DNA of 64,000 nt from Nitzschia sp. DOCU1 (Eukaryota > Bacillariophyta > Bacillariophyceae > Bacillariales > Bacillariaceae): contig OX595989.1 of NCBI GenBank assembly GCA_951394045.1, positions 1,674,001 through 1,738,000 on the forward strand, written 5' to 3'. Numbering within the stretch: position 1 is the stretch's first letter; each line of letters starts with the position of its first letter. Positions 18,601-59,131 of the stretch are shown here, in pieces. The notes below the pieces were generated by a model. That model had not been told where the DNA came from. It saw nothing but the letters and a program-made list of their open reading frames with translations, and searched no databases. The translations under genes were made by a program, and so were the position numbers.

Positions 18601-20028
18601 GTTACCGCATCACCTGGAATGATCCAGGAGATTGTCAAGTTGTGCCAGCGCAATGTCACCAGTGATGCTGCGGCCACCTTGGAGGCCTGCGTCGGCGTGC
18701 TTGGAAATATGGCTCATAACGAGACGAGCCGAACCGAGCTGCTTCGTCAGGATGGCGTTCGCACGGTGATTGAAACCATGAAATATAATCCCGAAGATTT
18801 CGGCGTGAACATAGAAGCTTGCTCTGCCATTGCCAATTTGGCAGTGTCTACTCAGATTCGGGAAGCTGTTCTGAAAGCCGGTGGCCTTGAGTGTGTCATG
18901 AATGCGCTGTATAAGTTCTTGGATAGCGATGAGCTTGTCGGTGAAGCAATCCGTGCCATGGTCTGTCTGGCAATTCATTCTCAAGAAACCAAGGAAGAAA
19001 TGGCTCTTCCGGACGTGATTGGATTGATTGGAGCTGCGAGTTCCAAGCATCCCGAAATGGGCATTGTGCAGGAAATGTGTTGCAAGTTATTGGCCTCCTT
19101 AGCCGTAGGCCGTGCGACGACGGACGTGATTGTCAACAATGGCGGTTTGGAGTTGATTCTGCGGGCGCTCAATTCCATTTCGGATGAAAAGGTCCAAGAT
19201 GCCGCCTGTGCTGCGTACAGAAACTTGACCTGTCAGATCCATGAGGCAGATCCCCTGTTGCAAAAAGGTGCCATAAAGTCCATCCTCAATGCCATGTCCA
19301 GTCACGAAAAGTGCGTTTCGCTTCAGACGAATGCTTGTTGCGCTATTTGGAATATTGCTTTCAAAACCCAACAAGACCCGGGTGTACTCGTGGGAAATCA
19401 GGGAGTTCAAGCCATTGTTAGGGCCATGCAAAATCACATGGAATTCAGTGATTTGCTAGAAGTTGCCTGCGGCGCATTGTGGAGCATTATTGACAATTCC
19501 CAAGACTGCAAGAAGGATGTGGTAGGTAGTGGCGCCATTGATGCCGTGATTTGTACTTTGGTAATGCACCCTACGTCCACGTCAACTTTGATCAAAGCGT
19601 GTGGAGTATTTGCTAATATCAGCGCGGAAGGGGGCTTTGCCGAGGCCATTGCCAATGCCCAGGGTGTCAGTGTTGTGTCAGACGCCATGCGCAACAACGC
19701 CAAGGCCATTCCCTTTCTCGAAATTGGCTGCGTGACCCTTCGGAACATTGTCTATCACTTACCGGACGTTGCCCGGGAGGCGTCCATGGCCATTTCCCCG
19801 ATTATAGATGCCATGAAGGAGAATATGACTGCAACTAGCTTTCAAGCCGAAGCATGCAAACTTTTGTGGGTCTTGGCTTCGGAGGCCGAGAGCTGCCAGT
19901 CCAAGATTTTGGCCTTGGATGGAATTTCGGTGTTGATGCAGTGCCTGGAGCAAAACAGCTACGACTCCAATGTGCAGGAGGCCGCCTTGGGTGCTTTCAA
20001 TCAGCTAGCCACAAGCGGAAATCAATAA
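15607..20028 (+). CDS. Large polyQ, CxxC-motif and armadillo-repeat protein
   Basis: A single exon of 1473 aa from ATGGCGACG (15607); the frame is open upstream to 15529 without another ATG until this point. Near the N-terminus, ECPTCGVKTHQM...GRCLVCHP holds two CxxC pairs that could bind zinc. Next come glutamine-rich (about residues 97-190) and proline/acidic low-complexity regions up to about residue 735. The C-terminal half is a run of armadillo-like helical repeats (residues about 770-1470), for example SRTELLRQDGVRTVIETM, IEACSAIANLAV and TNACCAIWNIAF, ending in EAALGAFNQLATSGNQ. Armadillo solenoids bind proteins. Similar CxxC-plus-armadillo or -LRR proteins occur in diatoms, but the function is not known. 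No signal peptide is seen; a cytosolic or nuclear scaffold is inferred. Confidence 0.8.
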   Translation: MATRRTSGYNIHTPSPGQPRDMLAAGIDIIPDRRNNLGAKREKRGECPTCGVKTHQMVLFGKPKPLTEEGRVYKGRCLVCHPLEGYIRRPPGAMHNHQQQQQHLRQQQQQQQHNQGHVPPPPQHNQYANSPPREQQSRPSMVGHPPQQHYGQVMPSQQPQYPRSQMPSQRQLIPQQQLLQQQQQHYPVEEANYMPATESGITVPRTLEVNELDDDVSVITMDYRLAQAARNWTPGMGLPEDEVYASDDEQDEMAPPIPNKRPGPDTGYSNDDAGNSRVVPPPRNVPSYQGNEDTTGHSRPSMMEGGSYRRKVAPPSLLPTISQEHAPDFSREESMQNSHVQDFQSRHQFHHGRHTQQQDYGHQQPGFDADGYPIASSGYGWDKQADLLPPGGNMDMLLRNRSGEAPLPTSSNRQKSHATLPINLNASGEIRFQPLSEDDEDDQIDDEPQMMMQMEEDHNKEYPLPPGLRGNLPAPPPIPNPRRMESMESGPMFLPDDVPTYDEGIGTPSQTRLKSQLSEPMFNMTASRPELPPGLRASKTVGAARFTNGFSGHNRGVGNKYDSRYSESGASESTGTMAPPLVGHDRRGRPDDDLIQDPSFAMMQSAPQQQSAAVMGTVLDNDNEDEEPEEEQPIVPRKGSKKEPPSQYMPEISPIAMPRPGVSVGGESEASTGLMFMDDGNEPNMATAPPAPELHFKKTPPPDYSNDYKQEEEERMDFKSASVAAPPSSECVTAMIRTLSIQPGEEHLDTTARPGVHAVNNQQKPGIEDIPVIMHCLNLDQANANMREKALRSLADILWKAGPKARDFVIEFKGVETLVKTMWDEIGSAAVQDAAADLLLALAASSDAEPHNDLLANQDDCCDSLLFAMQTHAHVESIQMKGITIFSCLAAASSNNKNVSDGSLSGASMMVLTAMSNHARSTDIQKAGLQALYYQCTLSEHAESNKRSLVESRLDNGSSGMSVIVSAMKSPLQNDPVSMEWTSRLCWCLTSSEDLVKAVTASPGMIQEIVKLCQRNVTSDAAATLEACVGVLGNMAHNETSRTELLRQDGVRTVIETMKYNPEDFGVNIEACSAIANLAVSTQIREAVLKAGGLECVMNALYKFLDSDELVGEAIRAMVCLAIHSQETKEEMALPDVIGLIGAASSKHPEMGIVQEMCCKLLASLAVGRATTDVIVNNGGLELILRALNSISDEKVQDAACAAYRNLTCQIHEADPLLQKGAIKSILNAMSSHEKCVSLQTNACCAIWNIAFKTQQDPGVLVGNQGVQAIVRAMQNHMEFSDLLEVACGALWSIIDNSQDCKKDVVGSGAIDAVICTLVMHPTSTSTLIKACGVFANISAEGGFAEAIANAQGVSVVSDAMRNNAKAIPFLEIGCVTLRNIVYHLPDVAREASMAISPIIDAMKENMTATSFQAEACKLLWVLASEAESCQSKILALDGISVLMQCLEQNSYDSNVQEAALGAFNQLATSGNQ

Positions 20029-20352
20029 AGTAATAGAAGACGGAGATTTCTGCATCCTTGGGTTGCTTTTTGGGAAACTAACAACATCGATGAATAGCTA
20101 TGCGGTTGAGTATTCACAATGGAATGAGAATCCTGCTATGGCAGAAGTGGACTTTGTCAACCCTGTTCATGACTACATTCGCCCCCAACTCATCAACTCA
20201 ACCTGTACGTTACCAATATCGGTAGCTTCCAACCCAGACATATACAGGTTACTCGCAGAATATTATCACAGCGATGATTGGGATGCATTTCAATAGGAGT
20301 ACCAACACCTACTTTAGCGAGAACGTTGATTACTACTTCTACGCGTTGGCTC
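20029..20352. other. Intergenic region between convergent genes
   Basis: It contains the two 3' flanks only. No feature is recognised. Confidence 0.45.
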
Positions 20353-21635
20353 CTAAACAACTTCAGATAGTTTGGTTTCGTCGCGTTTTTCTCGAGATCC
20401 CGGCATTTCGACTGTTTTGTCGCCCTCCTCTCCAAAGTCACTGGACTGAAGGTCCCGTCCCCCCATGTCATCCATGCCATCCCCCTGCGAGACCATCCAC
20501 CACTTTATCGAAAAAATTGGGAGGCCTTGTACATATCTCGCAAGAAAGATTGCATGGAGACCCAGCATCATCGCAATAAAACCACATACCATTGCGAATA
20601 CTGGATCCAACCACCATGTCGAAGGAGCCTTTTCGACGACCAAAGTTGTGACGAAAAGTCCGGTTGCGAGAGCAGTCCCGATTAGACTGCAAAGGCCGTC
20701 CTTATGTAGAGATGCAGAATTCAACTTGCTTGCGTATCTGAATTTGACAACTGTCAGAGAACCAAAGACGAAAATGCTCACGAACGAGATGGCCGTAACA
20801 ATTTTAAGGTCATTCTCCGTTTCGGGACCGCCTACAAAATCGTCCGCCGCGGCACCAAGCACTACAATTCCGAGAAGCACAAGAAGAAATGAAATGGCAG
20901 TGCTTGCTCGCTTTAAAAAATGGCGTTTTCAGTAAAAAGTACACGGCTGTGATCTGTCTGCGTCCACCAAGCACGATGACCAACTCACCTTCTCGCGTTT
21001 CACAAGCAGGGCTTCCCGTTCCTTCGTAGGGCGATAGAACCTCCACAAAACAATGATTGACGAAGCTGTTGGAGGGAGAGGAGACATAAGATTCCTGAAA
21101 GAAATTGTCGGCCATCGATGATCAAACACTTACTCAAATCGACTATATTCTCCAATCCATACACCAAGCACAGTGCTGATCCTGAGGCCTGCGATAGTAT
21201 CCGAGGATAATCCAAGTTAGCAATTGCAAACGTTGTCTTGCTGACACAATGGCCGAGGTGGGGTTCCTTGGAGAAATATAGCCCTCAAGCGAAGTACGAA
21301 GACCCCGCATTGATTAACGTCCCTCGCTGCGAACAAAGCACTTGTTGTTGTCCGCATGCCCAACAAATTCTGTGGTGTTCGGTTTATTCGGTTGGCTCTG
21401 CGTCTTCCTTAATGACCTCGTCGTTGAGTACAATGATCAGTGTTGGATCAAGACTCGCACCATTCCAAATTCTCTAACAAACATCCAGCGCGAAAAGAAA
21501 CCCCATCGATCGCATCAACAACGAACTCACCATGTAGAACGATATACCGGCGACTGCCGCGATCGTCTCTAGCACGACGCCCACCCACGACAGGATGAAC
21601 GCATGATTACTAGTTGGATCATTCCACCACGACAT
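20353..21635 (-). CDS. TMEM163 / cation-efflux-like multi-pass membrane protein (4 exons)
   Basis: Exons on the minus strand are 21635-21531, 21188-21134, 21065-20989 and 20910-20353; together they encode 264 aa in one open frame. The first exon begins MSWWNDPTSNHAFILSWVGV and is the first membrane helix. Joining exons 2 and 3 gives GLENIVDLTSSIIVLWRFY, a helix typical of TMEM163 and related CDF-superfamily proteins, followed by KEREALLVKREK. Exon 4 supplies helices including HKDGLCSLIGTALATGLF and STWWLDPVFAMVCGF, with the aspartates expected for metal binding, then an acidic and basic cytosolic tail. TMEM163 binds and exports zinc in animals; zinc or other divalent cation transport is inferred. 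Introns 2 and 3 are 68 and 78 bp, but intron 1 is 342 bp. Exon 2 is only 55 bp. Confidence 0.78.
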
Positions 21636-21994
21636 TTCTTATAGTCCTATGGTAGTCGGAATCGGAATGTGAACGGTTGGTCCACTGTGTGCTCTCTTTG
21701 CGGAAGGTTTGTGTTATCCTTTATGTGTTGAGAGAAGATCGAGATTGCCGACGATCCTCTTTCGTTGACTTTTTGGAGCGGCACAGTTAGTCAGCACGCG
21801 ATTCGAGTATGTCGACCGGAAAATTCGACTAAAATGATAAAACATGAACTGAAATAGTTTCTTGTCACCAGCAACGGTCATTGCGATAAACGCAATCGTC
21901 GTCATCACGACCTGAAATCGCGCAAATGAGGTTTGCCGGTGATCGACCATGATCATGGTCATCACATCACAAACTTTTCTCCTTCTTCACAATC
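21636..21994. other. Intergenic region between divergent genes
   Basis: It separates the TMEM163-like gene from the glycosyltransferase gene and presumably holds both promoters. Nothing else is seen. Confidence 0.45.
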
Positions 21995-23990
21995 ATGCCC
22001 TCGGACGTGGAACGCAAAAGCCGCACCAAGCGGCGAGACAAGAACAAATCTCTTCAGCTTCCTTCTCAGGTTGTGTGTACGGCTCAGGATGCCCTGGTGA
22101 CCAAAGGAAGCATTGAGCTGGGCGTGGTTTTTTGCCTGGTGGTGATTGGACTGTACTTGTATGGCTTTTGTGAGTCGATACAAGCCTTGCCAGACGTGGC
22201 GACGGGTCGGATTCTCGGAGGGAATCTCAATCTTGCCAAATTACAACGAGATGAAGTACTCTTGTCGACGAGCGGTAGTGATCATACTGCAGTAGCAGCT
22301 GCCGAGGAGACTTTGACGGTCGGTGGCGTGAAAATTCCCGTAGGAAAGTGGCCCGTGTCCACACGAGATGAAGAGGACGATTTTGAAATTCTGATTCATA
22401 CCGGAGATCACAAGACGGAAATGCGAGTACCGAAATTCTGGGCACCTCCTGTACACAACAAACAGCAGTTTACCAGAGAACAAGCCTCGAAAATTGGAAC
22501 GTGTCTTTCGCCGGATCCAGTGACTGGCTCGCATGTTCGGGGGACGGATTGTCCAGTAGATGATCGGACGATTTTTATTGCCATTGCCTCGTATCGAGAT
22601 TATCAATGTCGCTATACGGTAGAATCTGCCTTTTTGCGAGCCAAGAATCCACACCGTATTCGTATTGGTGAGTTTTGCTATATAGAAGAAATCGTTGCCA
22701 GGCAAACGAGTGGGGGAGTACAGACTTTCTCATATGCGTGATTGCTATTTTGCTGTTGCTACTATAGGCGTCGTGGATCAGATTGTCGATGGAGAAGATG
22801 ATCTTTGCAATGCGCCGATTGAACCATGCGAGAAAAATCCCGACCAGGCCTTGTGTAAGTACAAGGACCAGGTAGACGTCTATCAAATGCACGCCCATTT
22901 ATCCGTCGGACCTGTCTTTGCGCGACACATTGGACATCGTCAATACCGCGGAGAATATTACTCGACGCAATCCGATGCCCATGTGTCCTTTACCCAAAAC
23001 TGGGATTCCGATATTATTTCACAAATGGAGTCGACACACAATGACATGGCAGTGTTGACTACCTACTTGACCGACGTGCAAGGCTCGATCGACGCAAATG
23101 GACATTCCCTACGCAGTACTCGACCTATTATGTGTAATACGGACTACGAGGGGGGACCACAAGGAATGCATCTGCGGCACTTGTCACAACCTGAACGACA
23201 CCCCAGTATTCATGGTACGCCGCAACTCGAGCCTTGGTGGGCGGCGGGTTATTCGTTTAGTCGGGGTCATTTCGTCGTTAATGTTCCCTATGATCCATAT
23301 CAACCAATGATCTTTCAAGTAAGTTTATGTTGAGTTCTGGAGAATCGCCACTTGTGGGTCAACGCAAAGTCTCTAACTTGGCTGCTTTCCCACTCAGGGG
23401 GAGGAAATGAGTATTGGAATTCGGGGATTCACCATTGGCTATGACTTTTATGCTCCAGAGAGATCAGTATGCTTCCATCACTATGCTGTAGGAAAGAATG
23501 CTCAAGCACGCAACAAGGTGAAGCATTTCTGGGAAAATGGAGACCGGTACAAAGGGTACGTTGCTACTTTAAAAAGGAGTGTCAAAACTGTTGAATCCAG
23601 GGTTGTCGCTCACGTGGCGTCTCTCTCATACAATCATTTGGTAACCGTAGAGTGGGCAAGGCAGCAATGAAACGTCTCTTGGGTATTGTCCACATGAATC
23701 CGGAAGTTGACCCTACCACCTGGGATCATGCCGAGGAAGATGTTTATGGTTTGGGTGGCGTGCGAACGCCAGAGAAGTTTTATGACCTGTTTGGTATCGA
23801 TGTTGTCCGAAAGAAAACGCAGGGCCATTTGTGTATGTTTGTGGAAGCAGGAAAAATGCACGAAATGTTTTCCAGAAGGTTGCGCAGCGATGGAATGGGA
23901 ATCGATTACAGTGGAATTGATTTTCATTGGAAAGATCCCAACCCGGGGGAGGACAGTGGTGAGTCAAACGACGACAACGACAACGACTAG
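21995..23990 (+). CDS. GlcNAc-transferase family protein, type II membrane (4 exons)
   Basis: Exons 21995-22667, 22768-23318, 23398-23555 and 23651-23990 give 573 aa; introns are 100, 79 and 95 bp with GT-AG ends. A short basic cytosolic N-terminus is followed by one hydrophobic segment (about residues 40-60), so the protein is a type II membrane protein of the Golgi or ER. The catalytic region starts IFIAIASYRDYQCRYTVESA and contains QMHAHLSVGPVFARH, YYSTQSDAHVSF with a DxH metal-type motif, QNWD, and MSIGIRGFTIGYDFYAP. These match the Glycosyltransferase (GlcNAc) family, whose best-known members modify hydroxyproline of Skp1 in protists. The acceptor here is unknown. The C-terminal exon ends in an acidic tail (GESNDDNDND). 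Confidence 0.83.
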
Positions 23991-24141
23991 AAATCGTTTG
24001 AACACGCGTTTCTGGCGGTACTGAACCTCATATTATTGTCATGCCTCTATGATTGTCAGCAAATTGAAGAGGTTGTTTCAATCTACCTATAGGACTTCTC
24101 TGTATCACAATGCGAATAGTTCTAGTATAAGTAGTCCAGCA

Positions 24142-27100
24142 TTACACTTCTGCCTTCACTTTCCCACTACCACTGTCCACGTCCTTTTCAGCAGCTAGCT
24201 GCCATCGGCCCGTGACTCCGTCAAAAGAACGCTCCCCACCTTGCTCATTTGATCGCTTCTGAGCCGTCTGTAAATCGAGCTTCCATTTCTGCAAAACAGA
24301 TTGCGAATGGACAGGTGCTTGCTCAAAGAATGTTTGCAGCTCCCTCGCCAGACCCACATAGCCACCAACTATCGGATCCGGGCCCACGCCCGTGTTTGGC
24401 CGCATTGATAAAGTTCGCATGGTATGACGCATCCATTTTGGAAACTTCTTGTAGCTTCTGGGAATGCCATCATTGGGAGAGCCATCATCGCAATGTCTCG
24501 AATCCATCAAAATCACAGTCCCATAATCAGCACCATGGCGAATGCAGCGACCGAGTGCTTGAGCGATGGCGCGGTAAGCCTGCTGAGAATACCACTCGTC
24601 GCCGGGCAGTAGGTTTGTATTCTTACAAATCTTGCGCTGTTCATCATTGTAGGCCTTCTTTGCCTTGATGTTTCGATCATATGCATTTGGGAATGGAAGT
24701 CCGATGCAGATGACCGCACGCGCATTGTCGTCATTGAAGGATATCCCCTCGGACATCTTTCCACGGAATACGGCCAAGAGAATGCATTTCTTCTCCGTCC
24801 GAACCTGTTCCTTATACTCGTCACGTGCGGCCTCAAACTTTTCTTGGCTCCCAGAGGGCTCCACGATTACTTTGGTCTTTGACTGAAGCAGTCGGGCCCA
24901 TATCCGAGGAGCCGATGAATTCGTCATTTGCTGGACGGTTGGATTCCAACACTTGATGCATTTGTTCAGAAAGCTATAGGAGGGAACAAACACCAATACT
25001 CCACCCGACGGTATTGCTTCAATCACACTAGCCAGGGCATTGCCAAGTCGAGGAAAGAAGGAGTCTTCCTTGTAGTTGGAATAGCTGACTGTCAGCGGAC
25101 TTCCATCCGGAAAGTTTCCAATCGCACAAGCAAATAGTTGCTTCTTCAGATTCACCACATGGTCGGCTTCCAAAGGTGCTGGTTTGACTTGCAGTCGCCC
25201 GACAAGTTCCCTGGGCTTTTGAATTGACGTTGATTTGGACGGCATCCCCTGCGATAGGGGGGACAGATTCTTGGCAATATTGGACTTCGACCCTGTTGTG
25301 ACCGAAAGTGGATCTGTCGCGGGGGTAGCCGATTTGGGAGCATATAAGCTTAGCTCTGCACACAACGAGGGAAGTGGAGCCAAGGAGCCGCTGGCAAGAA
25401 TCACAGTTCGACACTGAGAAGAAAGCTCATTCATCAAAATCCCTGGACTGAGGAGCCGCAGTGTCAAATATGCCTCCCACAAATAACGGACTCCGTTGCA
25501 CATTGCTCCATGTCGAACTGCCTGACCAATGAAATAGCCACTACTGTTTTTGCTAGAGCAAGAATCATGATTGCACACACGCAGAGGTTCATTGGGATTG
25601 CGTTCCGTCCTCGGATCGACAAAAGGCATGGGTCGCGGATGCTTACGCCAGCGCTGCTTTCCAATCATCTCTTCGTACTCCTCTTGATTCATCCCGGTCG
25701 CGTAGTCAATATTGCCGTTTGGTTTCATATGGAATGCCAAATAGAAGTGTCTGTTTGAAACATGTGTTAGATGGGGGAAACACAACTTGAGTCTCACTCA
25801 AAAAGCATACTTACTCTGGATGTTTCGCAGCAAGTGCAAAACGACCAATGAGATCAACGAGATCGCTCATTGCAGCCTCACCAGTAGTGCGATCCGCCTT
25901 GTCTGATTCGTTCCTTCCAAACAGGTGGTTTTCAAGAGACTTGGCCAAGTTCTCTAATCGCGTACAGCTAACGGACGTAATTCCGAATTCTTCCAATTTA
26001 GGGCGGCATCCGACGGCCTGACCGCCTAATCCAAAACCTGTCGGACCCGAGTACGAGGCTTCTACAGAGTGATCATCTGAGAGACGAAACTTTGCGTGTT
26101 CCTGCTTGACGCGGGCAAGAGCTGCAACCAAAGCCGAATTCAACACGTCAGAACCCATTCACAGTTCCTCAACTGATCATACAACAACACCTACCTGGTC
26201 CAGTCTCAAACTTCTTGCGCTCGCCTTGCATGCACTTCACCATCTTCTCGAGAAATTGAAGTAACTCATGTGCCACCGAAGAAATAGGCTCTTCACCCCC
26301 ACCGAAAAGCTCGACCACCGATTCATCACGTGAAGCGTCGCGTGTTGATGATTTCTGATTTGAGTAGGTGGCCAGAAAGCTTATCATTTGGCACATATCG
26401 ATTTCACCATATTCTCCACTCCCACTTTCACAAAGAGTATCTTCAATGTTGTGCGCTTCATCCAACACTACGACGCTACCCTTCAAGTCCAAATTCAGTG
26501 TGCGACGGATTGCAGGATCCAGAACATAGTTGTAGGCTAATTTGCGCAGCAACAAGAAAGTTTAGAGACAATGCAACAACATGTTCGAACCAACTTGTCA
26601 GTGGTTTGATGAAGACCAACACTTACGTGCAAAGATGAGATCCGCAGATGACATTAGCGCTCTTGATAAATAGTAGGGGCACACTGCATGGTCAGAGTAC
26701 TCAACGTCGTCCTCGCTTTCCTCAGACACCGGTGCGTTATCTCGCTGTACTGTCAGAATCAGGGGGTCATGGGCGAGACTGACAATCCGTTGCTTCACGT
26801 CCGCAAGTGACCAAGATTTCACGGAAACACCATTGATCGACTGGATCCAGTCTCCAGGCTTGACTCTGCCATCTTTTGCCACGGGACCATCTGGCGTCAA
26901 ACTCACGACGCGGCATCCTCCCTCCTCCCGCCGTCCAAGACTCATACCAAAAGAACCCTTGGCTTCCTGTCGGTACACGGCAATTCGACTCTCGCGGTAT
27001 GGGTTCTTGCCGAATTCGACCAGATCTTCAATGTCCATTACTCCTAGCGTTGTTTCTTCCCCTCCCTCACAACAATTATTAATATGGTCTGCGGTCTTGA

Positions 27101-28724
27101 AGAACCGATCCTTGACAGCCCGAGCGGTACGCAAAGTCGTAAGCTGCTGATAATGTGGGCAGGTGGGCTTGGGTTTGCCTCGGCGCTTGGTGTCATTGGC
27201 CGGTGTGTCTGCATTCTGGTCGGCGTTTCCATCCATCTCGTCATCAACAATCTCAACCTCATCCGCAGTCTCCTTTCCTCCCGAGACAAATGGCTCTGGA
27301 TTGTCATCATCATACTTGCCCGTCTTGCTCTTGTGTATGTCCCGTCGCTTCTTATCCGTCGCCATTTTGCGGTCCCGGCACTGCTGGTTGAGATTGACGT
27401 TTTTGCCGACTAGCTCGCGATTGATGCAAAGCCTATCTCGACTGCCCAGCACAGTCATACGAGGTCGATAAGGGGTCTTTCTCAAACTTGCCACCATTTG
27501 TGCCACTTGTGAATGCGTCCGCGAGCAATAGACAATGGTAGGTACGTCCGGCTCCACCCTTTCACCCGCATCGCGTTGATCTTCCTCCTCATTGCTTTCG
27601 TCACCAGCTCCTGCTACTTTCTGAATAAGCTTGTCGATTTCATCGTCACACTCGGGTACTATTGCCTCTGCAGCTTGAGCAAGGCGCTGCTGCTTCTTGG
27701 CTAGATTGACTTTGGCCTGATATCGCTGCCATGCCAGGACGCTGCAGAGAATGGCAGCTGATTTCCCCGTTCCGGTCGGACTCTCCAATACTACATGAAG
27801 TTTACGCTTGAGCGCCTTGACAATATGAATTGCCATTTGTCGTTGTGGGGTCAAAATGGTGGAAAACGGCCATCCAATCCGAATACCTTCGACAAAGAAG
27901 GAGTTATGCAGCCGCAACTGGGCCACGTCTCCCTCCATTTTCAGATTCCCTGCCAAGGGTTCCGTCTCCCCAATGATGGACCGGGTCATCCACGGGGAGA
28001 GAGACATCCAGGGGGAGACACCGTTATCCTCGGATTTAAAAATGTGATTCAAAATTTCTTCCTGGTCTCGTTCCGACTTGGTTTCGGTAACTTTAACCAT
28101 GAGTGACAATTTTTCTGCCAGTACATCCGTGATTCTCTTTGAGCCAACGACGTTTTGTGTTGCACGTGATGCCATTGCTCGATCCTTTCGCAAGAGTGCT
28201 GGAGCTCCCCATATTCCTTGTTCGTCTTCCCCATAATCATAATAATAATCATCGTCGTCTTGCTCCATCATCCATCGCTGCCGCCGACGAGGATTTCTTC
28301 CAGTCATGTTATTCGTTCGATTCCGCAAAAAGGCGGCTAGGCCAGCCGACATGGCGGCTGCTGAACCGGCAGGAGACAAAACGGTCACTTCGTCTGTACT
28401 CACAGAAGTATCCTTGACAATGGGCTTGGCACTACAGTGGAGCGACCATGACGGACAGTCCTTGGCAGGAATGTCGCAAACGTGGCAATAGCACTTGGGA
28501 CAATGCTGCTGTGCGGTCTCTACAGAGAATCGAAACTTGCCACAATTGATCCGACCATGTGGATAGTCAATGTTTGGATTTACAAGGGTAGAAGAGACTA
28601 CCAAAGCGCCATCATCATCGTCATCTCCATCATTATTAGTTTCAGCCGGCTCATCACTGTGATGCTTTTTGGCGGGAGGAGGGGAGCAAATTTCGATGGA
28701 AGAATCGTCGTCATCCATGGCCAT
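24142..28724 (-). CDS. FANCJ: FANCJ/BRIP1-like superfamily 2 DNA helicase with an inserted PDZ domain (4 exons)
   Basis: Minus-strand exons 28724-26627, 26536-26195, 26121-25815 and 25750-24142 join in phase to 1451 aa; introns are 90, 73 and 64 bp. Residues about 55-95 hold a cysteine/histidine-rich module with CPKCYCHVCDIPAKDC. Helicase motifs: Walker A ESPTGTGKS (K321), YCSRTHSQVAQ, DEAH at 725-728, and motif VI QALGRCIRH. Iron-sulphur cysteines are assigned as C433, C449, C522 and C682. Between the last two lies a PDZ-like domain (about 580-662): GSFGMSLG carboxylate loop, then PGDWIQSINGVSV. The motifs ESPTGTGKS/LCSVLAW and PYNYVLD are FANCJ-like rather than XPD or RTEL1. FANCJ unwinds DNA 5' to 3' in crosslink repair and at G-quadruplexes. 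A nuclear repair role is inferred; the PDZ is not part of the usual family architecture. Confidence 0.85.
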
Positions 28725-29456
28725 CAAGTTTCACTGTGTGGATCCTTGCAAAGATCTCTCGTCTCTACTGTCTAAACGTTAGTTTCTGCAACGAAGTTGC
28801 GTTTCAGGATACGTATTATGGAGCGAAAGTGAAAAGATTTGTTGTGCAGTGGGCTTGTCATTTCTTTTGTTTTGCTGGGAGCCCCGCCGACCCACCAAAG
28901 GAGTGCCGCAAGGTCGGCGCGGCAAATCTTTTTCGCATGAATCTTTGTCTCTATTTACCATAACTATGCCACTACTGTTCGATTTTACGACTAATTCAGT
29001 AGATACGCACGTCCGGCCGTCCGATCGCGCCGCGTAGAAATGCTCTTGTACAAAATGTACCAGCCAAAGATGAGAACCCTGGTCAAAGCGCGCCTTTTCC
29101 GTCGCCGGTGTCACAAAACAACGGTCCAATGAAAATAATAGGCAGATACCTGGTACTATGAGTAAAAAGCGTCTGTCATTCTATGCCAAAATCAAAACGT
29201 TTGGTTGAAAGTCTACGTGCAATGGTTCTCTACTGGACTAAAGGACAGATGTTTCTGACGCCATCACAAGCGAAATCCCGTTTTGGCTCGAGATTTTCTC
29301 TCTGGCGGATCTTTGGGAGGTTCGCATCCATCGCGACGCAGGAGGTGCGAAGAAGGGGTCGGTGAACCCATCACTGCTTTCTCACAAACGGTGGCATCGT
29401 CCTCATAAACCAAACTTTTTGGACAAAGAAGAAAAGAAAGCCTTTAATAAGTCACC
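28725..29456. other. Intergenic region between divergent genes
   Basis: About 730 bp between the helicase start and the first small plastid-type gene. No convincing gene or RNA was recognised; it should hold two promoters. Confidence 0.45.
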
Positions 29457-30029
29457 ATGAACCGCCTTTCCCTTACCATCCTCCTTGCCGCTATGGCTTG
29501 CACCCAAGGATTTACTGCCGCACCTCGTCCCGTAAGTGGAATGACGAATTGATTCGTGCTGGGGATACGATTGCCTGAAAGGAAAGGGATTCATCATCTC
29601 ACCGACTTGTTGTTACTTTTCGCCTTGCAGATGATTCGTGTCCAGCCTTTGAATCTCTTGTCATCCGAAGAAAATGCTGCCATTCTGAAAAAGGCCGATG
29701 ACTGCTACCAGGGCGAGTGCTCCTTGGACGACGTCCAAGAGCTTATCTACACTCTCAAGGAGCAACAAAAGGAATTGCACGACCGCGTCAGCCAGGTTAG
29801 AAGCATGATCGAGACTCTGGAAAAGGTCAACGGCGAGCCAGATCGCCCCGTGAATGAAATCAGAGAGACTGTCCGTGCTCTCTTCCGTGTCTTCCAGCTC
29901 GGTGACAAGGCGTCCGGAAATGATTACCCTTCCTTGTCCAGGCCTACTGGATGGTCGGGTGAAGTTGGAAAGGGACCCACCACTGCTTATGATGCCTTGC
30001 CTCCCAAGAAGATCAATAAGACTCCCTAA
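29457..30029 (+). CDS. Small plastid-targeted-type protein, unknown function (paralogue 1, 2 exons)
   Basis: Exons 29457-29531 and 29631-30029 are joined over a 99-bp intron ending TTGCAG and give 157 aa. The first exon encodes only the leader: MNRLSLTILLAAMACTQG, then FTAAP, an ASAFAP-like motif suggesting passage through the ER to the plastid. The mature part starts near a conserved EENAAILKKADDCYQGECSL, continues with a coiled-coil-like helix (LIYTLKEQQKELHDRVSQVR) and ends in GEVGKGPTTAYDALPPKK. I do not recognise a named domain. The gene at 30637-31308 encodes a clear paralogue with the same leader/intron layout in convergent orientation. An AATAAA lies near 30176. Confidence 0.82.
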
Positions 30030-30636
30030 ATTGGACGGAAGACAATATTCTCTCCCACAATCCACTCCCCACCAACATTCCCTCGGCCCGTTGACACTAA
30101 TGACCGCTTGGAAAATGTCTAAAACTCGTCAGCAAAAGTTGAACGCAGCTATTAGCGAAAGTACTTTTCTCGATTAATAAAAGAGATAATTCCGCACTAC
30201 TTCATCTATACTGTTTAATTTTTGTTTTAATAGACGACCCCAGGGAATACTATTGTCTCTGTTAGTGCGGACGATCACTGAATGTCAGGAGCCTGTGACG
30301 ACCACTAAAGTCACTTCGTTCGTCATGACGACGGTCGTATCACGACTGCTTACAGACGCAAAATGGTCGTTTCCGCCTCGCTGCAGAGTTCCTGATATCC
30401 ATCATGCCTCGACAGTGACAAACAAATCTACTTTCTCTTGAGCATTGGCAGTATGTCGAGTTGTGAAAACGCAATGCTAGCTTGTTAATTTCATCTATTT
30501 GTAGCTACCTTTGGCCACTGCGTTGTTGGGGCGTGGGTGCAATGGGGGAGGTGAATTTATTGTACGACCAATCAATTTCCAGAAAAGACGACTTCGGAAA
30601 CGTGGCAAACGATGGAATCCGTGCGGCTGCTGCTGC
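30030..30636. other. Intergenic region between the convergent paralogues
   Basis: It holds the two 3' flanks, with an AATAAA near 30176. No gene recognised. Confidence 0.45.
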
Positions 30637-31308
30637 TTAGTTCTTGTCGCTGGGCTTCCACTTCTTGGGGGGAAGGGCGTCGTATGCCGTCATGGGTCCC
30701 TTGCCAATATCACCAGAAAATCCCGAGGGGAAATAAGTTGGTTTCTACAAAAAGAGAGCATAAAGAATAAAATTCATGAGATACATTCTGCACTGGGAAG
30801 AAATGCGGTCGTGGCCAGTGATGTCCAACGGCCGTAGATAGATATGACGAGACTTACCGAGCTGTCGAAAACTCGAAGAAGGTCCTTGACAAATGCTCGG
30901 ACTTCATCGGTCTGGCGTTCCTTCTTTTCGTTGATATGTTGAAGGTGGCCGACCATGTTCATTATGCTTTCCAAGCGGGTTTCCAAATCTTTCTCGGTTT
31001 TCTTCAAAACAGACAGCAACTCAGCAACTTCGTCGAGGGAGCATTCACCATCAATGCAATCTGTGGCATGCTTCAAAACTACTTCTGTCTCTTCTTCAGT
31101 CAAGACGTGGCGGGCTGTGGGGGAGGCAACAAAAGGCTGTGGGAACAATTAACAACGAATCACAGGTTAGAGGAGGAAGCCATAACGCCGCTGTCCATCG
31201 AGATTCACGACAAAGATTCCCGCGTACCTGACGAACAAAGGCAGGCTTGTTGGTAGTGAAGGCAGCAACAGCGGCAAGGAGGAGGGCAAACTGAGTCAAG
31301 CGGAACAT
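30637..31308 (-). CDS. Small plastid-targeted-type protein, unknown function (paralogue 2, 3 exons)
   Basis: Minus-strand exons 31308-31228, 31136-30858 and 30744-30637 give 155 aa. Exon 1 is the leader: MFRLTQFALLLAAVAA then FTTNKPAF, a signal peptide with F after the predicted cleavage site, as in diatom plastid precursors. Exon 2 carries EETEVVLKHATDCIDGECSL and LLSVLKKTEKDLETRL, aligning with paralogue 1 (EENAAILKKADDCYQGECSL). Exon 3 carries GDIGKGPMTAYDALPPKK and ends SDKN. The first intron sits at the same leader/mature boundary as in paralogue 1; the second intron is absent there. The function is unknown. The invariant DC-x-x-GECSLD core has two cysteines five residues apart, which could form a disulphide or bind a ligand. 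Confidence 0.82.
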
Positions 31309-32227
31309 GGTGGCTTGAGAACTTTCTGCTTTATTAGTTTTGTCGACGGAGGTGTTGTCAATGATCGTTCGATCGGGGATTTGTGAAATGATGGGTGATG
31401 GGTACAACTCTCTCGCTCTTTTGAAGACCGGAGAAGATCTTCGGATGCCGTAAGACATCGCGGTAGACGCATTTTCAGTGACGTTGGTCGGTCGTTCCTC
31501 GAGTACGATTGAGAACCCTAATTTGGATGCGAACACTTTTAGTACGAATCTTCCCTAGGTTTCTACGGAGAAAAAAAGCACAAACGCCTAAAACTAAAAC
31601 TAAAAAGAACAAGCCATCTGCATCGGCACGTCTGCGGCCGATGTCTTTCGAGCTCGTTAGTCGATTGGTTGATTGTATTCTTCGCCATGGCGGTGATGCC
31701 TTGTTCCTTGATGATGAGGCTGGTCGTTTCGCACTTCTCTACAGAATAGGTCCCGAGAAAGTGGCAGAAGGGAATCTGGGGTACCAGGTACACGACTGAG
31801 TCATTGCGATAGTCGTCGTCTATGATTGGTGGGTGCTGCTAAACAAGATTACTAAATTATGTCGATGTTCTCTAGGAGAAAGAATTCGAGCAAGAATTAG
31901 TTTCTGCCAAGTGGCAAATTTGTGTCGGTTGCAGTATCGTCATTGCCACTAGTATTCGAGGACAAAATTGACGAGGAAGGAGGTTAATCGTCTTTCTTGC
32001 CCTGTGGTTGTCTTGAATGAAACGTAGAAAGAATTGGTGCCGACAAGTAACGGTAGTCGTATAAGTCGGTTCATATCAATAACCATGTACTGCGAGCTAC
32101 AACTCAATCGTATTGCAGCTTTACGGCAATCTAGAATCTCTAGCAGACTAGTTCGCTGCTACCGTGCACATCTACTAATAGCATAACATAACAGTAGAAA
32201 AGATGCATCTCTACTGTTGGAGCTATA
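31309..32227. other. Intergenic region
   Basis: About 920 bp upstream of small paralogue 2 and downstream of the SH3-like gene. A 96-codon frame at 31509-31799 has no recognisable domain. CTAGTA/CTAGCAGACTAG-type sequence occurs near 32140-32230. Nothing else is seen. Confidence 0.45.
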
Positions 32228-35200
32228 CTAGTTCCATCTCCGTTTCGGTCTACCTTGCTGCTGATTCTCCTCATGTAGCTGGTTGTGGAACAGCCGCGCA
32301 ATAATGGTGTTGTAGGCGATTTCTTCTTGCTCCGGTCTTCCTGCCTTGGTAGGACGTCCCAAAGGCGCCTTGCGATGGCGCAACGAGTGCGGAATCATGA
32401 GTGCCTCTCCATCGGAATCCACATTATGGACCCAACCCTGACCGTCCTTCAGCCTCAACCACGTGATGGTATCATCCGGCCCCGTCACCCTTTCATTGAT
32501 CAGCACGCTCTCCCCTCCTAGCAAAACAACTCCATTGGCTTCGGCCTCAAAGGAAGGACCCTTACGGACTTGTACCCGGGCATCCAACACCACATTGTAC
32601 CTCCAACCCTGAGAGTGCCGTTCAATCCTAGGTTCTACGGCGCACTCTTCCAAAAAGAGTTCTTGGTAGCCAAAGACCTGAACCCATTCCGCTTGGACCG
32701 TGAGACTGGAAAGCGGCCGGATGGCACCGTGTCCCGCGTAGAGACGCACGTGACGATTGCGATACAACTTGGCATAGCACTCTGCCGGGGCATTCTGGCG
32801 GAAAAAAGTGACAACCTCCGAGGCACGAAGAAACTCGCCGCATTCAAAACGAAAATAGATACCGTCTTCGGATTTGATCGACGGCGCACGTTTGGACGGA
32901 CCCCATCGCACCTTGATTCCATTGCGATCCTGCACTCGGAACCAGAACGAGCCAAATCTTATTTCAGGGGGTGCAATTATCTCCGAAATAGGCTTGCCAT
33001 TCAATGAACGTGGAATCCAGCCTTGGCCACCACGCAGCCTCACATACTCTGTCTTGACGTTGTTGTGGCGTTCTGCGTCGGTTGGTGATGTCCAGCGTTC
33101 CACCTCGACAAATGAACCACACGGTAAAAGTGTCGAGAAGGGAAGTTTCTCGTTGACTGGCGCTGCTTGTTTGGGAGGATTGGGATTGCTGCTAGTAGTA
33201 ACACCGGCATCGCGACGATTTTCGTCCAGATCGCGTGGCTTTCGTGCCGGCGTTCGAAACATGGCATCCAAAAACGAGCTTCCAACGGAGGATGCCACAT
33301 CCGAGTCTTGACTACGAACGTGACCAGATCCATTGATGTTGTTCCCACCACTGATTACCGACGACGAGCCTCCAGCAGATGACGTAGGTGAAGTTTCATC
33401 ATCAGAGGAAATGTTCGATGACGGTGGCAACGATACCGTTACCCCACCTCGTGTCAGAATTCGGATATAAACTGGATTGTGGCGGTCGTCCACAATCGCG
33501 TTCCCTACTTCTTCAAAGGCGCGACTCGCTTCTCCTTCCTTGATTCCTCCAGCTAATAGTGCACCACCTGAAATATTTCGATATTGCTCATCCAATTCTT
33601 CTTTTTTCGGAACAATCGCCCAACCACTATTGTCCGAAAGCTTGATCAAGCCAGATCCCTGACTAAACGCTCCAGATGCCTCCATGCGTTTAGAGGCTTC
33701 AAACAAACTTCCGCGTGGTAATTTTCGAGCCTTGGTATTGGAATCAAAAACAGCCGGATTCCCAATCTTGCTTGTCAATGTCGTAGTATGATGGCCTCCC
33801 GACATGGTTTGAAAAATAGACTGATTTCCAGCACCACTGGCTGTGCTTAATTTGGAGAAAGAATCTTTGGAAGGGGACGCCGAAATGATGGAACCAGGAC
33901 CAGAAGGACGGCTGCCATGAATCAAATTGTTGACTTGAAAATGAGGAGCGTCTAGAATCTTCAACCCACGCGGGGCATTGACTTGCATTAAAAAGAAGGA
34001 TGAATGACTCGCAAGACCACCAGCTGATGATGAAGCAACACTTCTCGTAGCAATGGAAGACCGATCCGGTGTGATCAAGCCCACATTTCGAAGTTGAATC
34101 ATGGAATGTTCCAACGACGACGATTCGTCGGACAACAGAGACACGTTGGAGGAGGGTGACATTACCCCACGATCCATCGTTGGCGCATGATGATGATGAT
34201 GATGAGGCGGGGGCTGATTACTATGCTGTGAATGTTGAGGAAGATTCTCGCTTTGGTCATAGGAACTGTTGCGGGACGACAAAGCCGACGGGACAGCACC
34301 TGCGGGTGGTCCCGGTACATGTCGAGGAACGTTTTCAATAATTTCCTTTTTGACTTCACGACGCCTTCGAGGTGGTCGATGCCGTCTCGTTGCACTTGGT
34401 ACGGGTGTAGCCAAAGAAGAGGTGGTACTAGTAGCAGCCACGGACGCCACCGACAAGGCACAACACGGATCTTCCGTCGTCGTATCTTTGGTATCCGTCA
34501 CATCTTTCATCACAATCATTGTAGTATCCACTGACAAGGATGATGATGATGAATCTTGCGCATTTCTATGTCTGTGGTTGGAAATATGAATCCTCCGATC
34601 CGCCACCCATCCTCGTCTACGCGTCAATCGCAAATAGCAAACGTCCTTTTCGACGACGCGAAGACAGACTTCATGAACCGTACCCGGCACTAGCATTCCC
34701 TTGGTCGTCGGGGCATCTATCGAAGGTCCCATATAGACGGCCAGGGGTGTCGAAGAAATCACCTTGTACAAGAATTCTCCTCGCTCACAAACGGGAGGCT
34801 GGTCAATAGGGACCACAATTGGAACATGATTGTTGTTATTGCTGCGAGAAGAATCGATCCATAAATAGCCATGAGGCCGCCGGGTCTTTTTCATCATAAT
34901 TTCATCTTCGACGTCATCTTGCAATAATGGTAGGGGTGACGGTGGTGCTCCCATGGCAGAGAATCCATAATGTGTATTTCCTCGTTTGGGAGTGTGATCA
35001 CTTGCGGCAATGGATGTTGCGGATACGTCTACAAGAGCATCGACGGTATAACCTCCCGTCAAAACTTGGTCGACGCAAATGACTTTTTCGTCCTTTTCAC
35101 CACTCGTTACAATAATTTCGCCATAGCTGACATACGCGCCACTTCGTGGAGACGTTCGACTGGGACCCGATAACAAGGATACCACACCTCGATAAACGAC

Positions 35201-44383: not shown

Positions 44384-45874
44384 ATGTCATCACCCTATTT
44401 CAATGCTGGGAACGGCTCTGCACCTGTCGTGGTTCAGGGTCAAATAGTGGAGGCCAATAATTATCAACCAGCTCCGAGTGGAGGCCAGGAAGAATGGACG
44501 AAGGGAGAACCACAACCTCGACAGTGTCGGGATGCATTTTGGGCCATTTTATTTTATATTCATATTGGTCTGATTGGATTTTGTACAGCAAGATTTGCTC
44601 CATTAATGATCCAAGATTTGGGCGCCGCCGATTATTACAATGCCCAACGAAGATTTCTGGAGAACAATAATGACAATGCAGATTTTACTGTGGATCCACA
44701 AGCCGTTATGATTATTCTGGCCGTGTCCGGAGTAGCAGGTTTTGTGTTGAGTTCTCTAGCGATGTTGTTTCTCATGAGATTCGCGGAAGGTCTCATTAAA
44801 ATGGCACTCATTTTCAATGTGGTGGTATCCGCCGCCATGGCCATTGTGGCCTTGATTGGTGGCGTCGTGGGAATGGCGGTCATGTTTGGGATGGGATTCT
44901 TCTTTAGCATTTACTATTGTTGTATTGTCTGGTCGAAAATTCCCTTTGCGGCATCGAATCTTATTACTGCCACAACTGCTGTTCAAGCCAATATGGGTTT
45001 GGCCTTTTTTGCCTACTCGAACCTGATTGTAACTTTTCTGTGGAGTTTTTGGTGGGCGATTGCCTTTATTGCTACTTCCTATGTACTTGGAGGCTGCGAT
45101 GCTGATGGAACCTGTGACAATGACATCAATGGGGGACTGGTATTTGGATTTTTGGTCAGTTACTTTTGGACGGCTCAGGTTATTAAGAATGTCGTGCATA
45201 CGACTGTTGCAGGGACTGTGGGAACCTTTTGGTTTACTCCTATTGAAGCGAATGGATGTTGTTCCAAGGGCGTCCGTGATTCTTATTGGAGAAGTATCAC
45301 CACATCATTTGGCAGTATTTGTCTGGGATCTTTGATTGTAGCATTGATTCAAGCTACGAAAGAAATTGTGCATTCCATTCGAGAAAAAAACGATTCGTTA
45401 CTGGTCTGTCTAGCAGATTGTGTATTGGGTTGCATTGAAGCGCTCGTGGAGTACTTTAATCAGTGGGCCTATGTCTACGTGGGCCTGTATGGGTACAGCT
45501 TTGTGGAGGCTGGTAAAAATGTCATGTCTCTCTTTCGATCTCGGGGCTGGACGGCCATTATTGCCGACATGCTGGTCGACACTGTATTGCTCATGGTGAG
45601 CCTAGGTGTCGGCATTTTGACGGGTATCGTGGGCGTCTTGGTTGGAAGCTTAATCCAACAAGATGCAGTGACGCTGGTGGGAGCATTTTTGATTGGAATG
45701 GTCATTGGAATTGTCTTGTGCAGCACTCTCTTCAGTCTCATTAGCAGTGCGGTCAACGCCACGATTGTACTCTATGCGGAAGCACCCGCCGAATTTCAAG
45801 CCAACCATCCACAATTATCTGAACAAATGCGAGCGGCGTGGAAGCAAGCATATCCTGTCGAGTTCCGATATTAG
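44384..45874 (+). CDS. Choline transporter-like protein B (intronless CTL/SLC44 paralogue)
   Basis: One uninterrupted frame of 496 aa from ATG at 44384, beginning MSSPYFNAGNGSAPVVVQGQ. The order of helices and motifs follows the other three paralogues: KIPFAASNLITATTAVQANM, TAQVIKNVVHTTVAGTVGTFW, TTSFGSICLGSLIVALI, WAYVYVGLYGYSFVEAGKNV, IIADMLVDTVLLMVSLGVG and SAVNATIVLYAEAPAEFQ. Unlike paralogues A, C and D it has no intron, though all sites where they are interrupted are present in its protein. That could mean reverse-transcribed origin or intron loss. No poly(A) tract is apparent after the stop; the downstream P4H gene is only 93 bp away and convergent. Confidence 0.88.
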   Translation: MSSPYFNAGNGSAPVVVQGQIVEANNYQPAPSGGQEEWTKGEPQPRQCRDAFWAILFYIHIGLIGFCTARFAPLMIQDLGAADYYNAQRRFLENNNDNADFTVDPQAVMIILAVSGVAGFVLSSLAMLFLMRFAEGLIKMALIFNVVVSAAMAIVALIGGVVGMAVMFGMGFFFSIYYCCIVWSKIPFAASNLITATTAVQANMGLAFFAYSNLIVTFLWSFWWAIAFIATSYVLGGCDADGTCDNDINGGLVFGFLVSYFWTAQVIKNVVHTTVAGTVGTFWFTPIEANGCCSKGVRDSYWRSITTSFGSICLGSLIVALIQATKEIVHSIREKNDSLLVCLADCVLGCIEALVEYFNQWAYVYVGLYGYSFVEAGKNVMSLFRSRGWTAIIADMLVDTVLLMVSLGVGILTGIVGVLVGSLIQQDAVTLVGAFLIGMVIGIVLCSTLFSLISSAVNATIVLYAEAPAEFQANHPQLSEQMRAAWKQAYPVEFRY

Positions 45875-47299: not shown

Positions 47300-47568
47300 T
47301 GTCGATGGTGATTCTTCTTTAACAGTAATAAGGATATATTAAGGACGGATGGGATTGTGGGACAAGAGAGGTCATTTTCGCATTCAAGTCGTTTTGCGAA
47401 CCCATGCAGCATCGACTCATTTGACTTCAATTCAACGGTTGGCTGGCAGGAGTTGGATTTGGCGACCGACACGCGCGCGTCAACCCCGTCAAACACGACA
47501 CAACCGAACCTCTATCGAAATCACGAGAGATGATGCCCCCTTTGAAGGTGCATCACAAAACTTTCACC

Positions 47569-49204
47569 ATGACGATCCCGATTGTGCAAGGAACGGCCGT
47601 CCCATCTGGGCAGTATGCCGAACCTCATTACAGCCAGCCCTATGTGGCATCGGAAGAAGGAGATGTCATGAACTTTTCGAATAACGAACCACAAGCTCAA
47701 AAGAAGTTTCAAGATGTTCCTTGGGCGATTCTCTTTATTTTGCATTTGGCGGCCATGTTGGTCGTCATTTCTCTCAACATGGCCGGTATGCAAGGTGGTG
47801 GTGGTGGTGGCGATTATAATGGCGTCATTTGGATGGTAGGAATGACAGCTGTCGTGGCGATTGGAGTCTCGTGTGCTTCGTTGAGTCTCATGATGAAGTA
47901 TCCACAAGCACTCGTCAAAACGGCACTGATTTTTACCGTGGCAATGAGTCTAGCCATGGCCATTATGGGATTCATGACGGGACAAATGTGGTTTGGAATC
48001 CTAAACTTGGTGGCATTTGCTATTAGCGTCTGCTATGCCAAGCTTGTGTGGTATCGTATCCCTTTTGCCGCCGCGAATTTGAATACGGCATTGACAGCGG
48101 TCAAGTCCAACTCGGGATTGACCTTCATTGCCGTGTTCATGCTCGTTGTGGCCTTGGGGTGGTCGGTTTTGTGGTTTGTAGGGCTCGGGCAAGCATTATC
48201 TTCTAGCAGCGGGGGCATCGTCTTCTTGTTGCTGGTCAGTTACTACTGGGTCCATGAAGTGCTGTGCAATATTGTGCACGTGACTAGTGCCGGTACCGTT
48301 GCCACTTGGTGGTACGTGCCACTGGAAGCAGCCGCCTGCTGGTCCCAAGCCATTCAGGACTCCTTTTGCCGGGCCACTACGTATAGCTTTGGTAGTATCT
48401 GCTTTGGATCACTCTTGGTGGCAATTGTCCAAGCGCTCCGAGCCATGGCGCACATGGCTCGAGAGAACGATGATATGCAAATCTTGGCCTGCATTCTAGA
48501 ATGTATTCTGGCCATGATTCAAGATATCATTGAGTATATGAATAAATGGGTAAGTGGAGTGGAACGAAGGAATGCTTGCTAGGTTTATTGATGGAAGCGC
48601 TCACCTTTTCTCTCAGGCTTATGTTTATGTGGGTATCTACGGCTTTAGCTACTTGGAAGCTGGACGCAACGTCATCCAACTCTTCCAGAACAAGGGATGG
48701 TCCGTCATCATCACGGATGACTTGTGCGATCGAGTCCTCTTCATGGTGTCCTTGGGCGTTGGATTTGTCACGGGCATTGTTGGATGGGCTGTGGCCGCTG
48801 CAGATCAGAATCTATTGAGTGGACTCAACCTTGGGGATGGAGCAGGCCTTGGAGGATTCATGTAAGTGCCATCGTTGGGATAGACGGGGGGATTCCGCGC
48901 GTACAATGATCAAAACTTACCCGTGCCTTCTTCTCAGTATTGGCCTCATTGTGGGCTTTGTCTTTTCGAGCATTTTGCTCAGTGTAGTTGGCTCTTCCGT
49001 CAACACGGTAATTGTTTGCTATGCCGAGGCTCCGGGTAAGTAAAGAGGTTAATGTTGCGTTCCAAGCTAGCTGTTTCAAAAATGTTTCTTACAAAAAGTT
49101 CTTTTCTGTCCGCAGCTGAATTTGAAACCAACCACCCAGAATTGAGTAGGGAGATGCGATCGGCTTGGACCCAGGCTTGGCCAGAACTGACGATTGGGGC
49201 CTAG
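47569..49204 (+). CDS. Choline transporter-like protein C (CTL/SLC44 family, 4 exons)
   Basis: Exons 47569-48549, 48617-48861, 48938-49035 and 49116-49204 give 470 aa. The ATG at 47569 (CACCATGAC) was chosen because MTIPIVQGTAVPSG aligns with the start of paralogue A (MSTPVVVQGTAV); an in-frame ATG at 47530 would add 13 residues. Motifs: YRIPFAAANLNTALTAVKSN, HVTSAGTVATWWY, TTYSFGSICFGSLLVAIV, AYVYVGIYGFSYLEAGRN, IITDDLCDRVLFMVSLGVG and SSVNTVIVCYAEAP. The first intron falls one codon later (NKW|AYV) than the corresponding intron of paralogue A (NK|WAY). It shares a 269-bp upstream region with the divergent P4H-like gene and is convergent with the Sec14-like gene. Confidence 0.87.
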
Positions 49205-58782: not shown

Positions 58783-59131
58783 TAGCTACACCGGTCGGTC
58801 TCTAGAGCTAGTAGCAATAACAATAAAAAAGAAATTTGAAACAAGCTATGGGAAGGTTGAGGATATCAAGGCAACTACTGATATCTATCCGCGAAACCGT
58901 AGGCAAGTCGGATTAGTCATCTTAACTCGAATGTTCTCGGGACTCTGGCGCAACGCACGAATGACTGCCTCTGGTAGAGTTTCTACATGCTGTTCCACGA
59001 ACCAGCTGTCACTTTCTAACGCGACGGAACTTCGAAACGACGATGAAGAGAACAACACTTCAAACACTTTCCATTCGTTGCAACTGATATCATCCTCCTA
59101 CTCACTACTTTACAAGAACACACTTAAAACA
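58783..59131. other. Intergenic region upstream of CTL gene D
   Basis: It contains the 3' flank of the membrane-protein gene and the leader of CTL gene D, whose frame is open upstream. No other feature is recognised. Confidence 0.45.

Follow-up and report, generated by a model that had tools for sequence, protein, structure and literature searches.

A PDZ domain before the fourth predicted cluster cysteine of a FANCJ-type helicase in diatoms and Parmales

The helicase gene and its PDZ domain

The window (i.e. the whole 64,000-nucleotide stretch of Nitzschia sp. DOCU1 DNA that was analysed) carries on its minus strand a four-exon gene for a FANCJ-type helicase, in which the following features were placed:

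24142..28724, minus strand: FANCJ-type helicase gene, 4 exons, 1451 residues (splicing and translation; Pfam DEAD_2 and Helicase_C_2)
28724-26627, 26536-26195, 26121-25815 and 25750-24142, minus strand: exons of the helicase gene (splicing)
28428..28559, minus strand: N-terminal Cys-rich segment, residues ~56-99 (sequence)
27759..27773, minus strand: helicase motif I GTGKS, residues 318-322 (sequence)
27426..27428, minus strand: predicted cluster cysteine 1, C433 (column conservation; aligns with a human FANCJ cysteine)
27378..27380, minus strand: predicted cluster cysteine 2, C449 (column conservation; aligns with a human FANCJ cysteine)
27180..27317, minus strand: acidic segment of low complexity lying between C449 and C522, residues ~470-515 (sequence)
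27159..27161, minus strand: predicted cluster cysteine 3, C522 (column conservation)
26742..26996, minus strand: PDZ domain, residues 577-661
26943..26954, minus strand: putative carboxylate-binding loop S-F-G-M, residues 591-594 (function assumed by analogy to characterised PDZ domains)
26682..26732, minus strand: acidic linker from the PDZ domain to the fourth cysteine, residues 665-681 (sequence)
26679..26681, minus strand: predicted cluster cysteine 4, C682 (column conservation)
26451..26462, minus strand: helicase motif II DEAH, residues 725-728, exon 2 (sequence)

The three introns (90, 73 and 64 bp) are all GT-AG, and the spliced protein contains no internal stop. An earlier, sequence-only reading had put a PDZ module at 26745..26990 (residues 579-660), in a frame running on within a single exon, and this holds: the domain lies wholly in exon 1, which is open throughout, and a Pfam scan of the whole spliced protein returns PDZ (PF00595) at residues 584-659 (E=1.2e-9, 38.9 bits, cut-off 23.2) together with DEAD_2 (E=9.8e-38) and Helicase_C_2 (E=4.7e-45). 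When the 108-residue segment is scanned alone, the PDZ match reaches E=1.8e-11. In the predicted model the strands of the domain span residues 577-660 in a canonical PDZ fold, and SFGM follows the x-phi-G-phi pattern of a carboxylate loop. Over 104 inserts the domain is flanked by linkers with a mean length of 11 residues at its N-terminal end and ~20 at its C-terminal end, the latter being 24% Asp+Glu. The full-length model of the relative P0023 is confident (pLDDT 85.7, pTM 0.87); in the predicted model of the window protein the acidic stretch of residues ~470-515 is a low-confidence part.

Two further Cys-containing segments were observed. A Cys pattern resembling the N-terminal segment, under a loose definition, occurs in 26 other proteins of 134; the segment is common to diatom and Triparma relatives, is assigned PF27679 in many of them by a newer Pfam, and is presumably reminiscent of a plant RIN13-like domain. 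Residues 975-1000 in exon 4 (24142-25750, minus strand) contain Cys-x4-Cys ... His-Gly-x-x-Cys, which resembles a zinc site of small size; its three Cys positions are Cys in 52, 50 and 45 of 109 rows, P0105 and P0108 among them (the rest being mostly gaps in truncated rows).

Elsewhere in the window, two similar small ORFs face each other at 29553-30029 (plus strand) and 30774-31148 (minus strand), with a common GECSLD[DE]V...L motif, and look like recent relatives. Three similar membrane-protein ORFs are clustered on the plus strand (44384-45874, 47530-48582 and 58754-59968) and by eye look like choline-transporter-like proteins. No tandem repeats were found at 20000-34000.

Family identity

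Motif VI of the window protein (QALGRCIRH) is identical to that of human FANCJ, while the three other family genes of the genome have QAVGRVIR, QSVGRAIR and QCVGRVIR. The tree places the window protein outside the RTEL1 clade (97/90), in a larger group with FANCJ-named proteins; the support of that group, however, is no more than 80/91, and it includes rows labelled Rad3 as well. L021 from the same genome groups with animal RTEL1 (95/96), which the window protein does not. An RTEL1, CHL1 or XPD identity was rejected, the genome having one separate gene resembling each. The best PDB match being FANCJ was discarded as a discriminator, since L021 and L022 also match human FANCJ best. The human FANCJ structure 9ej9 was absent from the 50 matches listed, which is no counter-evidence, and an NCBIfam scan of exon 1 gave 14 families, none of which exceeded its own cut-off (the top one being rad3, at 61.8 bits).

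Cluster cysteines and the insertion site

The assignment of C522 and C682 as third and fourth cluster cysteines, proposed from the sequence alone, is borne out by the alignment columns. Among PDZ-bearing rows Cys is found at C433 in 100/107, at C449 in 99/107, at C522 in 103/107 and at C682 in 107/107 (with 6, 8, 4 and 0 gaps, respectively), and among short-linker rows in 80/80, 78/80, 80/80 and 80/80. The four conserved cysteines of an FeS helicase are present in C433, C449, C522 and C682, and a cluster is predicted. Splicing, Pfam, model strands and column counts agree that in this FANCJ-type helicase the PDZ domain lies between the third and fourth cysteines, as the sequence-only reading had it. 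The CPYY block of the PDZ-less relative P0037 aligns with human C350. An extra Cys was also seen between cysteines 3 and 4, at residues 551-552, in 92/107 PDZ rows and 4/80 short-linker rows (75 gaps); it may be a fifth ligand or unrelated.

Linker length and occurrence of the insert

The relatives compared are the best 120 of 3306 and the best 120 of 844 matches, so that the counts below are not population frequencies. The alignment has 196 rows, namely 195 database proteins (including P0001, the window's own copy) and the spliced protein. Linker length was counted in this alignment, from the V of DIEDLV to the fourth cysteine; a pattern-based count overlooks rows from plants and oomycetes as well as some diatom ones, and it gives false stretches in P0104, P0114, P0155 and P0164. 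Six rows with no letter at the fourth cysteine (P0141-P0146) were set aside, leaving 190.

The linker is at least 90 residues long in 110 of the 190 rows, exactly 9 in 72, and intermediate in 8 (P0152 12, P0037 21, P0183 23, P0036 24, P0047 27, P0167 29, P0176 38 and P0123 44 residues). The 9-residue linkers belong to Phytophthora, plants, green algae, fungi, dinoflagellates and animals, and span XPD and RTEL1 family members as well as FANCJ. The search for the same insertion in other diatom FANCJ homologues was strongly positive: a PDZ-type stretch occupies the site of the window protein in 108/190 rows with the fourth cysteine, in linkers of 98 to 344 residues (median 113; 107 rows, P0001 excluded).

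A PDZ family is listed for 93 of these 108 rows (precomputed, or from Pfam for the window protein). When the other 15 were scanned, P0084 exceeded the PF00595 cut-off (24.7 bits), twelve fell below it (17.2 to 23.1 versus 23.2 bits), and P0056 and P0095 gave no PDZ match up to E=1; the 14 rows below the cut-off or unmatched still align with the others and have the common flanks. The slot holds two PDZ stretches in P0007 and P0082; in P0014 Pfam recognises two, and one more is seen by eye.

Two distant relatives, P0105 and P0108, were observed to have other long inserts at the PDZ position (90 and 145 residues) with no Pfam PDZ match; they score -1.0 and 10.4 bits, respectively, against the helicase-PDZ profile, and were kept out of the PDZ-type rows and of the groove and identity statistics. 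By eye the insert of P0108 faintly resembles a PDZ (LVRTGDVIIAASHG ... VLLVVRRR); if real, this could be an independent insertion.

Spread, gain and loss

Carriers of the domain include Nitzschia inconspicua, Cylindrotheca fusiformis, Cylindrotheca closterium, Amphora coffeaeformis, Seminavis robusta, a Bacillariaceae MAG, Thalassiosira profunda, T. exigua, T. oceanica, T. sp. AJA248-18 and Conticribra weissflogii, as well as Triparma verrucosa and Triparma laevis, Triparma being a member of the Parmales (Bolidophyceae). Judging from their id prefixes, P0070 is presumably Cyclotella cryptica and P0096 Pseudo-nitzschia multiseries.

In a 113-row tree calculated with the insert left out (and omitting 21 rows, through the pattern-based linker definition), the window protein lies among PDZ rows. 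In a 29-row tree the PDZ-less P0036, P0037 and P0047 share a clade supported at 99/99 with five PDZ rows, and a single clade of the 18 chosen PDZ rows versus the 11 others is rejected (p-AU 0.0011), as expected if these three lost the domain. The short linkers of two of them start with FGRNPYQR (P0036) and FGRNPE (P0037), which resemble the diatom N-side linker (F571 in 97/104, G572 in 99/104, P575 in 99/104), whereas 9-residue linkers lack these residues. The FGRNP remnants are read here as a deletion scar, although gene-model errors may also account for the short linkers of P0036 and P0037. P0098, which has a RING and no PDZ, joins Triparma in the 113-row and RTEL1-containing trees and is basal, with unsupported placement, in the 29-row tree; its PDZ may have been lost or may never have been present.

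A profile built from 94 inserts was applied to ten inserts held out of it, which scored 59.8 and 54.5 (Triparma), 45.6 (P0135), 45.4, 44.0, 41.9, 41.2, 33.1, 23.6 and 20.2 bits, versus 33.7 bits for the best other single PDZ of the genome (19 of 49 other PDZ places examined). Seven of the ten, Triparma included, are above every other PDZ examined, while P0035, P0063 and P0033 are not. The pattern is read as one PDZ gain before the split of diatoms and Parmales with later losses; independent gains may also have occurred.

The C-termini of these proteins differ. A C-terminal RING on the FANCJ polypeptide was observed in the named Thalassiosira and Triparma and in many further rows, being among 134 proteins P0049, P0051, P0052, P0055, P0062, P0065, P0066, P0068, P0069, P0070, P0074, P0077, P0091, P0092, P0094, P0098, P0102 and P0118, and also in P0136 and P0139-P0146. 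Pfam zf-C3HC4_3 exceeds its cut-off in P0066, P0092, P0094 and P0098 (with UPF0029 too in P0098); a Pfam scan of the whole window protein found no RING. In the pennate group of the window protein, psi-K-x-E tails were seen (VKAEV in the window protein, MKAEL in P0057, VKEEILT in P0081 and VKKETT in P0073), possible SUMO sites.

The peptide groove and sequence change

Groove statistics cover the 104 single inserts, the three multi-PDZ rows being omitted. Gly593 of the loop is Gly in 102/104 and Ala in 2/104, both of the latter being Triparma rows, and Arg585 before the loop is Arg in 99/104 and Lys in 5/104, which is as expected if the groove works. Tyr584 is Tyr in 95/104 and Asn631 is Asn in 97/104. 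In PDZ domains the residue at alpha-B1 indicates the ligand class. Position 640, taken here to be alpha-B1, is L in 26, V in 17, I in 16, P in 12, K in 11, A in 5, M in 4, S in 4 and others in the remainder; because it is mostly hydrophobic and rarely His, it points to hydrophobic C-termini as predicted ligands rather than class I ones.

The insert evolves faster than the helicase core, with a mean pairwise identity of 32% compared to 70% for the region that runs from about motif I up to C433, and 50% for C682 and the next 128 residues.

Possible roles of the PDZ domain

Human FANCJ interacts with BRCA1. For the window protein and its relatives it seems rather probable, from sequence and by analogy, that the PDZ cassette in the FeS domain grips the C-terminus of a partner and that FANCJ is anchored in this way to a complex active in repair or replication. 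The cassette would have entered the FeS domain of a FANCJ-type 5'-3' helicase, in the loop before the fourth cluster cysteine, and the groove (judging from the carboxylate loop and position 640) would hold the free C-terminus of a partner protein; once docked, this partner would tie FANCJ to the complex and would probably keep the enzyme in place, or direct it, where DNA is damaged or folded. Binding of C-terminal peptides by the PDZ domain, as well as 5'-3' unwinding and G-quadruplex activity of the helicase, are predicted properties, and an effect of the PDZ ligand on unwinding is possible. The presence of two or more PDZs in the slot of P0007, P0014 and P0082 fits an outward-facing cassette, while the kept cluster cysteines and the confident P0023 model indicate that the helicase fold tolerates the domain.

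Animal FANCJ is recruited through short peptide motifs, whose part the PDZ would take here. According to the available text of PMC10897178, AND-1 is bound by a CIP box of FANCJ located between motifs IV and V, and according to that of PMC8109800, MLH1 is contacted via an insert after Walker A. Against docking, position 640 is varied, so that the ligand preferred may not be the same in all species, and some may have lost such a preference; the loop Gly is replaced by Ala in Triparma, P0036, P0037 and P0047 lack the domain, and the identity of the insert is low.

Rather than positioning the helicase, the domain could mainly be a gate, its ligand shifting the FeS domain or Arch and so switching unwinding on or off. 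The closeness of the PDZ to the cluster ligands would suit this, as would the path of the translocating strand, which on a Y-fork passes the FeS domain of XPD; in the same available part of PMC11479942, however, the strands separate at the Arch domain, and the acidic, loosely predicted C-side linker would weaken mechanical coupling, which leaves a gate unlikely. The sequence-only reading had set the domain next to the wedge that separates DNA, where it could recruit a partner or gate unwinding; in view of the strand path in XPD, this position at the wedge is conjectural. A structural spacer or inert passenger, kept for stability with no notable ligand, is similarly doubtful. Its rapid sequence change, the apparent losses in P0036, P0037 and P0047 and the weak or absent Pfam score in 14/108 rows are compatible with such a role, but the loop Gly (102/104) and the Arg before it (99/104) are kept more than a spacer needs, and the domain is still present in lineages as far apart as Triparma and raphid pennates.

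Improbable on present grounds is a compound function, in which diatom and Parmales FANCJ would be peptide-gated (occupancy of the PDZ groove controlling loading or unwinding) and would, in RING-ending centric diatoms and Triparma, also ubiquitinate the recognised partner or neighbours at the fork. It is more improbable still that the PDZ binds the tail of its own polypeptide, either intramolecularly or within a dimer: the endings KAEV (window protein) and KAEL (P0057) could fit a class II groove and several RING-bearing relatives end in V-F/Y-W, but the latter motif directly follows the RING, where it may serve RING dimers, and C-termini differ from one PDZ-bearing row to the next, for which reason the own tail was dropped as a conserved ligand of the domain. 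Finally, an artefact (a fortuitous match, an unspliced intron or fusion with a neighbouring gene) was rejected as very unlikely, because the Pfam match is accompanied by the identical domain at the identical site, with cysteines and flanks kept, in more than 100 database proteins.

With docking as the preferred reading, the PDZ domain would offer a handle on FANCJ recruitment and control outside animals, and a ready bait for the partner. The architecture is kept from Parmales to pennate diatoms, and it indicates that an FeS cluster domain can accept a folded module of ~85 residues with its cysteines retained.

Comparison with known systems

The sequence-only reading knew of no helicase with a PDZ in its FeS domain, and the literature search concurs, no description being found among the matches listed (which included few subscription papers and preprints); PMC9479744, in its available part, names both domains in unrelated contexts. 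Both parts are familiar; it is their combination, a folded interaction domain between two predicted FeS-cluster ligands of a helicase, that no listed paper was found to describe.

Canonical PDZ domains (MPDZ PDZ11, InaD, LNX2 and choanoflagellate Dlg) differ in setting, as that of the window protein lies inside a helicase FeS domain, without an adjoining scaffold or protease domain. RTEL1, XPD and CHL1 share the DEAD_2/Helicase_C_2 family, with one gene of each type in the genome, but in all three genes the linker before cysteine 4 is short. Chl1/DDX11 and FANCJ offer a parallel in the insert that follows Walker A and precedes the FeS domain, which in the available part of PMC8109800 is an insertion in helicase domain 1 for partner contacts; that insert is mainly disordered and located elsewhere, whereas the one described here is predicted to be a folded module for peptide binding, placed between C522 and C682. 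Human FANCJ/BRIP1 (9ej9) corresponds in its helicase core, in the alignment of cluster cysteines 1, 2 and 4 and in motif VI, to which the window protein adds an N-terminal Cys-rich segment, an acidic stretch separating cysteine 2 from cysteine 3, and the PDZ domain before cysteine 4.
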